Assembly (NCBI GenBank): GCA_944376455.1
Contig: CALWCO010000009.1
Span: 1 to 42,516 of the forward strand
Source: an uncultured Clostridia bacterium
GTDB taxonomy: Bacteria > Bacillota > Clostridia > Christensenellales > Borkfalkiaceae
Reading direction: 5' to 3'
Length of the DNA stretch: 42,516 nucleotides
Shown: piece after piece, positions 19,114 to 21,470 of the stretch
How positions within the stretch are numbered: the first letter of the stretch is position 1
Layout of the letters: every line of letters starts with the position of its first letter
Notes under the pieces: generated by a model
Database searches by the model: none
Told to the model about the DNA's origin: nothing
Seen by the model: only the letters and a program-made list of their open reading frames with translations
Program-made: the position numbers and the translations under genes

Positions 19114-21147
19114 ATGTATTTTGAAGCATGGGACGGATTCAAACCCGGCAAATGGAGTGAAGACGGCGAAATCAATACCCGTGACTTTATCCAAAAGAAC
19201 TACACCCCCTATGAAGGCGACGGCTCCTTCCTCGCCGGCCCTACCGACGCGACCAAAAAACTTTGGAGCGAAGTTCTGGCGCTTTTGGAACAGGAGCGCA
19301 AAAACGGCGGCGTGCTGGACGCCGATACCGAGATTATCTCTCAGATCAATTCCCACCCCGCGGGTTACATCGATAAAGACCTCGAAAAAATCGTCGGTCT
19401 GCAGACCGATAAGCCCTTAAAGCGCGCGCTGATGCCCTTCGGCGGTATCCGTATGGCCGAACAGGCGCTCAATATGTACGGTTATCAGATTTCCCCGAAG
19501 GTAAAGGAAATCTTCTCCAAGTACCGCAAATCTCACAACGACGGCGTGTATGACGCATACACCCCCGAAATGCGCCGCGCGCGTACTTCCCATATCCTGA
19601 CCGGTCTGCCCGATACGTACGGCCGCGGCAGAATCATCGGCGATTACCGCCGCGTCGCGCTCTACGGTATCGATTATCTCGTGCAGCAGAAAGAAGCGGA
19701 TAAGCTCGCGAACAACGGCAACATGACGCCCGAGCGCATCCGTGCCCGCGAAGAAGTGTCCGATCAGATCAAGGCGCTCAAACAGCTCAAAGAAATGGCG
19801 ATGAGCTACGGCATCGATATTTCCAAACCCGCCAAGACGGCACAGGAAGCCATTCAGTTCCTCTATTTCGGCTATCTCGGCGCGGTCAAGGATCAGAACG
19901 GTGCGGCAATGTCCATCGGCAGAAATTCCACCTTCCTCGACATCTATATCGAACGCGACCTGCAGAAGGACATCCTTACCGAAGAAGAAGCGCAGGAACT
20001 GATGGATCACTTCATCATGAAACTCAGAATGGTACGTTTCATGCGTATCAAGGAATACAACGAGCTCTTCTCCGGCGACCCCACCTGGGTTACCGAATCC
20101 ATCGGCGGTATGGGCATCGACGGCAGAACGCTGGTTACGAAGAACTCCTTCCGCGTCCTGCACACCCTCGACAACCTCGGCCCCGCGCCCGAACCCAACC
20201 TGACCGTGTTGTGGTCCAAAAAGCTCCCCCTCGCATTCAAACGTTACTGCGCCGATATTTCCATCCGTACTTCCGCCATTCAGTATGAATCGGACGATCT
20301 GATGCGCGTGGAAATGGGCGACGACTATGCCATCGCCTGCTGCGTCAGCTGCATGCGCGTGGGCAAGGATATGCAGTTCTTCGGCGCGAGAGCCAATCTC
20401 GCCAAGTGCCTCCTCTACGCGATCAACGGCGGTAAGGACGAACTGATGCGCGACAAGGCAACCGGCAAACACCTGCAGGTTTCCCCCAAATTCGAAGCCA
20501 TCACGTCCAACGACGCGCTCGATTACGATGAGGTCATCGAAAAATACGAAACCATGATGAACTGGCTGGCGCGGCTCTATGTCAACACGCTCAACCTCAT
20601 TCACTACATGCACGACAAATATTCCTATGAAGCCCTCGAAATGGCGCTCCACGACACCAAGGTGAGAAGATTCTTCGCCACGGGCGTTGCGGGACTTTCC
20701 TGCGTGGTCGACTCCTTGTCCGCCATCAAGTACGCGAAAGTATACCCGATCCGCGACGAAGAGGGCGTGGTCGTCGACTTCCGCATCGAAGGCGACTTCC
20801 CCAAATACGGCAACAACGACGACAGAGCCGATGAAATCGCCGTATGGCTGGTCAAGACCTTCATGCGCGAGATCAAGGCCCGCTTCACCTATCGCGAAAG
20901 CATTCCCACCATGTCTATTCTGACCATCACTTCCAATGTCGTTTACGGCAAGAAGACGGGCAACACGCCCGACGGCAGAAAGGCGGGAACCCCTCTCGCG
21001 CCCGGCGCCAACCCCATGCACGGCAGAGATCACAACGGCGCGCTCGCGTCTTTGGAATCGGTCGCCAAACTCCCCTATGAGTTCGCCCGCGACGGTATTT
21101 CCAATACCTTCTCCATCACGCCGCAGTCTTTGGGTAAAAAAGATTAA
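19114..21147 (+). CDS. pflB: Pyruvate formate-lyase, main body without glycyl-radical domain
   Basis: This 677-residue protein is the barrel part of pyruvate formate-lyase, which converts pyruvate and CoA to acetyl-CoA and formate. The active-site pair Cys409-Cys410 lies in DDYAIACCVSCMRVGKDMQF. Other motifs are MPFGGIRMAEQAL and TITSNVVYGKKTGNTPDGR. It ends NTFSITPQSLGKKD and stops, where normal enzymes (about 740-760 aa) continue into the radical domain. That missing part is the separate gene at 21234-21470. The protein alone cannot hold the radical. AGGAG is 8 bases before the ATG. Confidence 0.95.
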   Translation: MYFEAWDGFKPGKWSEDGEINTRDFIQKNYTPYEGDGSFLAGPTDATKKLWSEVLALLEQERKNGGVLDADTEIISQINSHPAGYIDKDLEKIVGLQTDKPLKRALMPFGGIRMAEQALNMYGYQISPKVKEIFSKYRKSHNDGVYDAYTPEMRRARTSHILTGLPDTYGRGRIIGDYRRVALYGIDYLVQQKEADKLANNGNMTPERIRAREEVSDQIKALKQLKEMAMSYGIDISKPAKTAQEAIQFLYFGYLGAVKDQNGAAMSIGRNSTFLDIYIERDLQKDILTEEEAQELMDHFIMKLRMVRFMRIKEYNELFSGDPTWVTESIGGMGIDGRTLVTKNSFRVLHTLDNLGPAPEPNLTVLWSKKLPLAFKRYCADISIRTSAIQYESDDLMRVEMGDDYAIACCVSCMRVGKDMQFFGARANLAKCLLYAINGGKDELMRDKATGKHLQVSPKFEAITSNDALDYDEVIEKYETMMNWLARLYVNTLNLIHYMHDKYSYEALEMALHDTKVRRFFATGVAGLSCVVDSLSAIKYAKVYPIRDEEGVVVDFRIEGDFPKYGNNDDRADEIAVWLVKTFMREIKARFTYRESIPTMSILTITSNVVYGKKTGNTPDGRKAGTPLAPGANPMHGRDHNGALASLESVAKLPYEFARDGISNTFSITPQSLGKKD

Positions 21148-21166
21148 ATTTTTTCCTTCTATTCTG

Positions 21167-21195
21167 TTGACAAATTTCCTTAATTAGGATATAAT
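21167..21195 (+). promoter_or_regulatory. Promoter of the separate glycyl-radical domain gene
   Basis: TTGACA (21167-21172), a 17-base spacer and TATAAT (21190-21195), an exact consensus. It lies in the 86-base gap after the pflB body. It indicates that the small gene is transcribed on its own and not only by read-through. Confidence 0.92.
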
Positions 21196-21233
21196 ATCAT
21201 TAAAGATAAAGATTTTGAAAGGAGATGATTGCT

Positions 21234-21470
21234 ATGGCAAATACGCAAGTAGATAATCTGGTAACGATGCTGGACGGATACGTTGCAGACGGAGGCCATC
21301 ACCTGAACGTCAACGTATTCAACAGAGACACCCTTCTGGATGCGCAGAAGCACCCCGAAAAATATCCGCAGCTGACCATTCGCGTTTCCGGCTATGCCGT
21401 AAACTTCAACAAACTCACGAAGGAACAGCAGGATGACGTTATCTCCCGTACCATTCACGAATCCATGTAA
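21234..21470 (+). CDS. Stand-alone glycyl-radical domain of pyruvate formate-lyase (GrcA-like)
   Basis: This 78-residue protein equals the C-terminal domain of pyruvate formate-lyase. It contains LVTMLDGYVADGGHHLNVNV, HPEKYPQLTI and the radical motif RVSGYAVNF with Gly53, and ends ISRTIHESM. E. coli GrcA (YfiD) is a similar spare part that rescues oxygen-damaged enzyme. Here, however, the neighbouring main body lacks this domain, so the small protein is probably a required subunit. The start at 21234 has AAAGGAG 9 bases upstream; an ATG at 21225 overlaps that site and is not chosen. It has its own promoter and terminator. Confidence 0.93.
   Translation: MANTQVDNLVTMLDGYVADGGHHLNVNVFNRDTLLDAQKHPEKYPQLTIRVSGYAVNFNKLTKEQQDDVISRTIHESM

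Follow-up and report, generated by a model that had tools for sequence, protein, structure and literature searches.

Anaerobes obtain formate and acetyl-CoA to a large part from pyruvate formate-lyase (PFL), and its cleavage by oxygen at the radical glycine is a classic weakness. In Escherichia coli, the enzyme PflB (PDB 2PFL and 1H16) is one chain of 759 residues, and YfiD/GrcA (6OWR), whose 127 residues include an N-terminal half that is disordered, restores PFL cleaved by oxygen, its standalone radical domain acting in trans. PMC8683613 describes a laboratory construct, E. coli PFL cut at residue 695 (tPFL, 1-695), that works with a separate radical domain. Combined with truncated YfiD it was catalytically competent (kcat 204 per s), but activation of the cut enzyme with separate domains was poor (0.5-2.7 uM radical, vs 15.9 for cPFL:YfiD).

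Natural counterparts of both pieces are already on record. The NCBIfam family NF038360 carries the name GrcA3, Collinsella aerofaciens has genes annotated as pflB-grcA3 (683 and 83 residues, with 85 nt between them), and the PDB contains two truncated bodies, both under the name "Formate acetyltransferase". The first of these, 38LA, ends in LGKED, much as the window body does, and is 100% identical (rounded; one residue differs) to a natural protein of 666 residues (P0121), whose relatives at 99% and 94% identity are named Amygdalobacter, the closer one being Amygdalobacter nucleatus. Of the split and fused bodies set against the second, 38LB, those of Atopobiaceae split loci were nearest (83%); 38LB has 53 residues beyond the aligned part. 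A search with the small protein described below matched no radical-subunit chain in either entry. Amygdalobacter nucleatus, for which the listed PFL is the truncated body of 666 residues, secretes formate and grows less well with hypophosphite according to the accessible part of PMC12208373, which does not discuss a split PFL. Among the matches listed from the open-access PMC literature, there was no account of a natural two-gene PFL, its thioredoxin partner or its re-fusion, nor any use of the name GrcA3. The earlier note on this DNA did not say whether the two-gene form had been described; the papers among those matches gave no description, but the family, the Collinsella annotation and the PDB bodies were known, as was the service of a separate domain to truncated PFL in vitro (PMC8683613). 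New here are the tie of a thioredoxin-like gene to split loci and the nesting of fused enzymes within the split clade.

Two complementary pieces at one locus

The locus occupies the forward strand of the window (the whole stretch of 42,516 nt analysed). A perfect TTGACA-17-TATAAT promoter-like site (17833-17861) precedes pflA (17925-18653), encoding a radical-SAM PFL-activating enzyme of 242 residues (TIGR02493, 323.6 bits, cut-off 231.75). Between pflA and the PFL body lies a gene absent from the earlier note (18688-19005), encoding a divergent thioredoxin-like protein of 105 residues with the motifs CASC (its CxxC) and VPT, which matched PF00085 (35.9 bits, cut-off 23.5) and fell short of the thioredoxin equivalog TIGR01068 (39.3 bits, cut-off 96.8). 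The body itself (19114-21147), headed by an AAGGAG ribosome-binding site (19100-19105), comprises 677 residues and ends in SLGKKD at a TAA stop (21145-21147). It passed the cut-off of the PFL profile TIGR01255 (1092.3 bits, cut-off 994.2), with a match covering positions 1-662 of 744, and possessed a single pair of adjacent cysteines, Cys409-Cys410 (codons 20338-20343), the catalytic pair of that family. This pair was invariant in all 26 split bodies aligned and is taken, by homology, to be 418/419 of E. coli PFL. The radical glycine, which TIGR01255 places in the same chain, was found in a separate gene.

This gene, grcA3 (21234-21470), encodes 78 residues, including the motif RVSGYAV and the predicted radical site Gly53 (codon 21390-21392), in a reading frame different from that of the body and after a gap of 86 nt (21148-21233). 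The first ATG of the frame is at 21225, but the AAAGGAG ribosome-binding site (21218-21224) fits a start at 21234. In the alignment with E. coli PFL and its PDB structures, the body covered residues 9-678 and the small protein residues 683-759, with Gly53 at the position of Gly734; the natural cut thus falls between 678 and 683, in contrast to the engineered cut at 695. The truncated body without a radical glycine of its own and the separate radical-domain gene, as described in the earlier note, are both real. The four-gene unit is followed by an intrinsic terminator-like hairpin of 14 pairs with a T run (21494-21527), the longest of 8 such sites in the region, a number showing no excess over shuffles (7.8).

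The small protein passed the cut-off of NF038360 (164.6 bits, cut-off 158), of which it is a member without any difference, and failed that of the E. coli GrcA model TIGR04365 (99.6 bits, cut-off 170). Its match to YfiD begins at YfiD residue 67, and the PFL stretch before the radical domain is kept. Folded alone, it gave a poor prediction (pLDDT 62.2, residues 1-28 below 50). Unlike the PFL partner of GrcA, its partner body has no radical domain. GrcA accompanies a full-length PFL, whereas no full-length pflB was detected in the window organism's own assembly (1.72 Mb, 91% complete), where PF01228 matched in three places only: the end of the body, the small gene, and an anaerobic ribonucleotide reductase (RNR)-like gene adjoining a radical-SAM gene. 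Although the name GrcA3 denotes an autonomous cofactor, the gene context here speaks for an obligate subunit.

The same split was present in the other four genomes of the genus (G001-G004; the G001 body is cut by a contig end), and NF038360 gave one match in each of the five (G000-G004). Relative to the window, dN/dS (Nei-Gojobori, six comparisons, one with a partial body) ranged from 0.02 to 0.13 for the body and from 0.03 to 0.07 for the small gene; both are under purifying selection.

The gap also contains the exact TTGACA-17-TATAAT (21167-21195) which, like the AAAGGAG site, the earlier note had reported correctly. The perfect hexamer pair arose in 79 of 200,000 single-base shuffles of the 86-nt gap and is thus above chance for that gap; against this, the window holds 8 occurrences on both strands together. 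Both hexamers were identical in four of the five genus genomes (G000, G001, G002 and G004), although the spacer and flanking bases had diverged, most so in G002. In G003 (L026), the gap is 20 nt long and retains only TTGACA, directly after the stop and ahead of the ribosome site, as if a deletion had removed the rest of the promoter. Elsewhere the perfect pair is absent: of 130 split loci (some genomes counted twice), only 4 have it in the gap, and these belong to the genus of the window. As the gap was shorter than 40 nt in 52 of 129 loci (one outlier left out), co-transcription is likely common. Separate transcription, which the earlier note thought would permit cheap replacement of the radical subunit or control by its dose, is not supported as a general principle, and the intergenic promoter is a local refinement, not a defining feature of the split system.

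Distribution and the thioredoxin-like neighbour

The best 80 loci from named genomes, ranked by similarity to the small subunit and therefore no census, comprised 79 standalone domains and one fused enzyme (Enterococcus casseliflavus), and 70 of the 79 had a truncated body upstream on the same strand. The record titles included Clostridia, Lachnospiraceae, Oscillospiraceae, Erysipelotrichaceae, Atopobiaceae (Actinomycetota), Gastranaerophilales and Acholeplasmatales. In a sample of 398 genomes from across the phylum, which gauges frequency more fairly, 119 had a PFL-type match, with a standalone frame below 100 residues in two (the own genome and G686) and short frames in two more (198 and 252 residues); in an order sample, 146 of 396 genomes matched and at least 15 were split, the own genome included. 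Matches to the small domain also occurred in 1539 phage-collection and 144 plasmid-collection records.

Among 43 further genomes that carry a standalone domain, a full-length PFL was found only in Claveliimonas bilis (G458, L155/L174), which has the split and full-length forms together and offers a natural strain for comparing both. In two of the 43 (G444 and G460), the body was seen only as contig-edge pieces. Seven (G429, G440, G444, G445, G447, G453 and G454) encode another standalone radical domain at a different site, as do G1110 and G1119, and this extra copy looks like a spare part of the split enzyme.

All split loci whose junctions were listed break at one position, marked by LGK or something close to it, and two kinds of split can be distinguished. 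In the sharp kind, to which the window belongs, the body ends in LGKxx or a close variant (LGR, LGP), and the order pflA, thioredoxin-like gene, body, small gene was found in 34 of 42 surveyed loci (some genomes twice). In the tailed kind (e.g. L155, L159, L142 and L149), the body continues for 12-50 residues, often with VFxGDLxV and often with cysteine pairs (CC or CxxC), and the order body, small gene, pflA was found in 27 of 38 surveyed loci, nine more having no pflA in reach (some genomes twice). The tailed bodies formed one group (SH-aLRT 99), and their tail may substitute for the missing strand or for the thioredoxin. In L163, the radical domain (start about 6001) lies 3.2 kb downstream of the body (end 2784) instead of adjoining it.

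In the sharp clade, 64 of the 72 split loci that could be read (one further locus was unreadable) have a thioredoxin-like gene between pflA and the body. None of the clade's 26 fused loci has one there; in these, pflB directly follows pflA at distances of -3 to 84 nt. Two loci (L252 and L255) were scored as bearing the gene and one (L259) as lacking it by reading the sequence. Since eight of the 72 split loci lack the gene, and one of 38 tailed loci has a match, it is not strictly required. Whole-genome searches with the window protein gave matches in all 15 thioredoxin-bearing split genomes given, but, with an E-value limit of 1e-6, in only 2 of 26 fused genomes, both weak (29-33% identity), and in 2 of the 6 split genomes that lack the gene, weak too; very divergent copies can escape such a search, since BLAST overlooked two in the clade that were recognised on reading the sequence. 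Among 68 CxxC-containing peptides (some genomes twice), CANC occurred in 41 and the [IV]P[ST] pattern was missing from 14, and a G[YF]QPxEI segment was common to the 17 aligned. The best tree required seven split/fused changes and five thioredoxin-gene changes, and the independent-pairs test found two pairs on starred branches and seven on all branches, too few for significance, so that the association carries no valid phylogenetic p-value. The link rests on few independent events.

PFL as the sole acetyl-CoA route of the window organism was rejected, as pyruvate:ferredoxin oxidoreductase (PFOR) is present there as two contig-edge pieces. Of the other split genomes searched, G028, G011, G045 and G354 gave no more than weak partial PFOR matches, and G307 had a contig-edge piece of 196 residues. 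Matches resembling the pyruvate dehydrogenase E1 subunit reached 149.2 bits in G028 and 125.6 bits in G045 but only 19-31 bits in G011 and G354, the level of the window genome (30.5). As nothing beyond weak partial PFOR matches was found in G011 and G354 (assemblies 93-94% complete) and their E1-like matches are weak, the split PFL may be the only pyruvate-to-acetyl-CoA route in these two.

Fused relatives and alternative readings

The trees from 80 loci left out five duplicate genome copies and loci without a near full-length body. The family sample added 60 of 242 matching genomes (21 placeable fused and 39 splits hand-picked for spread), without G909, G914, G915 and G956, whose frames were short or partial. 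In the tree relating thioredoxin and fusion, three further duplicates and the partial bodies of G976, G1087 and G1096 were omitted, and only six tailed and six outer fused rows were kept. Fused enzymes occupied two parts of the tree, one outside and one nested in the sharp split clade. Placing all fused rows on one side was rejected (p 3.7e-97; 58 rows, 15 fused, the group having been chosen after the first tree was seen), and more than a single fission is therefore needed. Enzymes nested in this way look re-fused, and one old fission with later re-fusion would be the simplest rooted reading. A single split clade was supported at 83 in one tree and 98 in two. A single clade of the six nested fused rows was not rejected (AU p 0.199), so that re-fusion may have happened once or several times. 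Seven of the eight split rows without a thioredoxin gene grouped with fused rows: G213 and L107 with G990 and G1016 (support 96), G023 with G014 and G031 (support 94), and G027, G964, G920 and G906 with eight fused rows (support 80). These groupings hint that thioredoxin loss may precede re-fusion, but not all rows agree. The eighth, L137, had no fused neighbours, the fused G007, G255 and G1145 had no thioredoxin-less split neighbour, and the split G961, with its thioredoxin gene present, sat in a wider group of 24 rows holding 19 of the fused.

Several readings compete with that of an obligate two-subunit enzyme. From a single genome, a sequencing error or recent nonsense mutation at 21145-21147, which the earlier note had named as able to overturn its claim, could not have been told from a true split. 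The pieces, however, lie in different frames, the 86-nt spacer carries a ribosome site and a promoter, and the identical break recurs in G001-G004 and in dozens of other assemblies, so that this explanation is refuted by the relatives and keeps a negligible probability. The same break in all five genus genomes and many others, together with purifying selection, excludes a read error as well as a relic; the lack of a detectable full-length pflB in the own assembly, 91% complete, and the conservation in relatives of the body stop and separate domain, both of which the earlier note had proposed to look for, agree with this. A related reading makes the small protein an ordinary GrcA-like repair spare and the body the remnant of a once full-length PFL. 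The name GrcA3, the resemblance to GrcA in the TIGR04365 score and the second standalone copies in 7 of 43 genomes speak for it; it is nonetheless highly improbable, as no intact PFL to repair was detected in the own genome, the body is under strong purifying selection, and the E. coli-type N-terminal half is absent from the small protein.

Dose control through the separate promoter, as the main reason for the split, would explain why the hexamers are kept in four genus genomes despite changed surroundings. It is unlikely all the same, given that so few split loci have the promoter, that G003 of the same genus makes do with a 20-nt gap, and that a perfect promoter-like site precedes pflA too. 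The remaining reading takes the fused form as ancestral, the split having arisen many times at one spot. It draws on the weakly supported deep forks of the clade and on the unrejected single clade of nested fused rows; against it stand the rejection of one-sided placement (with its group picked after the first tree), the split state of both the tailed clade and the earliest sharp branch, and the homologous thioredoxin gene that split loci share and fused loci lack. A small but tangible chance is left to it.

Proposed working of the two-subunit enzyme

Very probably, the locus encodes a pyruvate formate-lyase made of two obligate subunits, of which the one with the radical can be exchanged. Beyond the complementary pieces and the conserved break, the competence of E. 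coli PFL cut at 695 with truncated YfiD supports this, as do the formate secretion of Amygdalobacter nucleatus and its slower growth with hypophosphite. The poor activation of the cut E. coli enzyme with separate domains speaks against it, as do the PFOR pieces of the window organism, beside which its PFL need not be essential, and the split loci without the thioredoxin gene. The small subunit would dock on the body, PflA would install the radical on its Gly53, and the radical would pass from there to Cys410/Cys409, upon which pyruvate would be cleaved. Oxygen cutting at Gly53 would then cost only the piece of 78 residues, to be replaced by a fresh copy, and this small piece is likely a cheap, replaceable part upon oxygen destruction. 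The thioredoxin-like protein would keep the vicinal cysteines reduced while the active site is open without the radical subunit, and thus probably guards the exposed cysteines of the body. What the analysis establishes is the sequences, the break with its conservation and the selection on it, the tie to the thioredoxin gene and the nesting of fused relatives; assembly of the pieces into a complex, passage of the radical, exchange of the subunit and the part played by the thioredoxin are inferred, and cheap replacement after oxygen damage and dose control are of the same kind. Going further, pflA, a dedicated thioredoxin, the body and the radical subunit could form an oxygen-repair cassette in which loss of the thioredoxin drives closure by re-fusion, a proposal that is speculative and more doubtful than not. 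If correct, the fragile part would have been placed on a disposable subunit, and the family would provide a rare natural case of a gene fission reversed.

With a radical subunit that detaches naturally, its exchange, activation in trans and repair could be studied on an enzyme that needs no engineering, and split and fused enzymes in one family provide natural pairs for testing the benefit of the split. Gut and vaginal bacteria have genes annotated as "formate C-acetyltransferase" that are truncated, and these would no longer read as broken.

The host bacterium is probably an animal-gut dweller. Downstream of the locus, on the reverse strand (21753-22706), a protein of 317 residues has a zinc-ribbon-like CxxC-CxxC start and a C-terminal hydrophobic stretch, with no Pfam match. 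Upstream, between an mnmA-like gene and pflA (17300-17860), the frames repeat a FPHPxQRExxPLQS-like peptide several times, probably reflecting direct DNA repeats ahead of the pflA operon.
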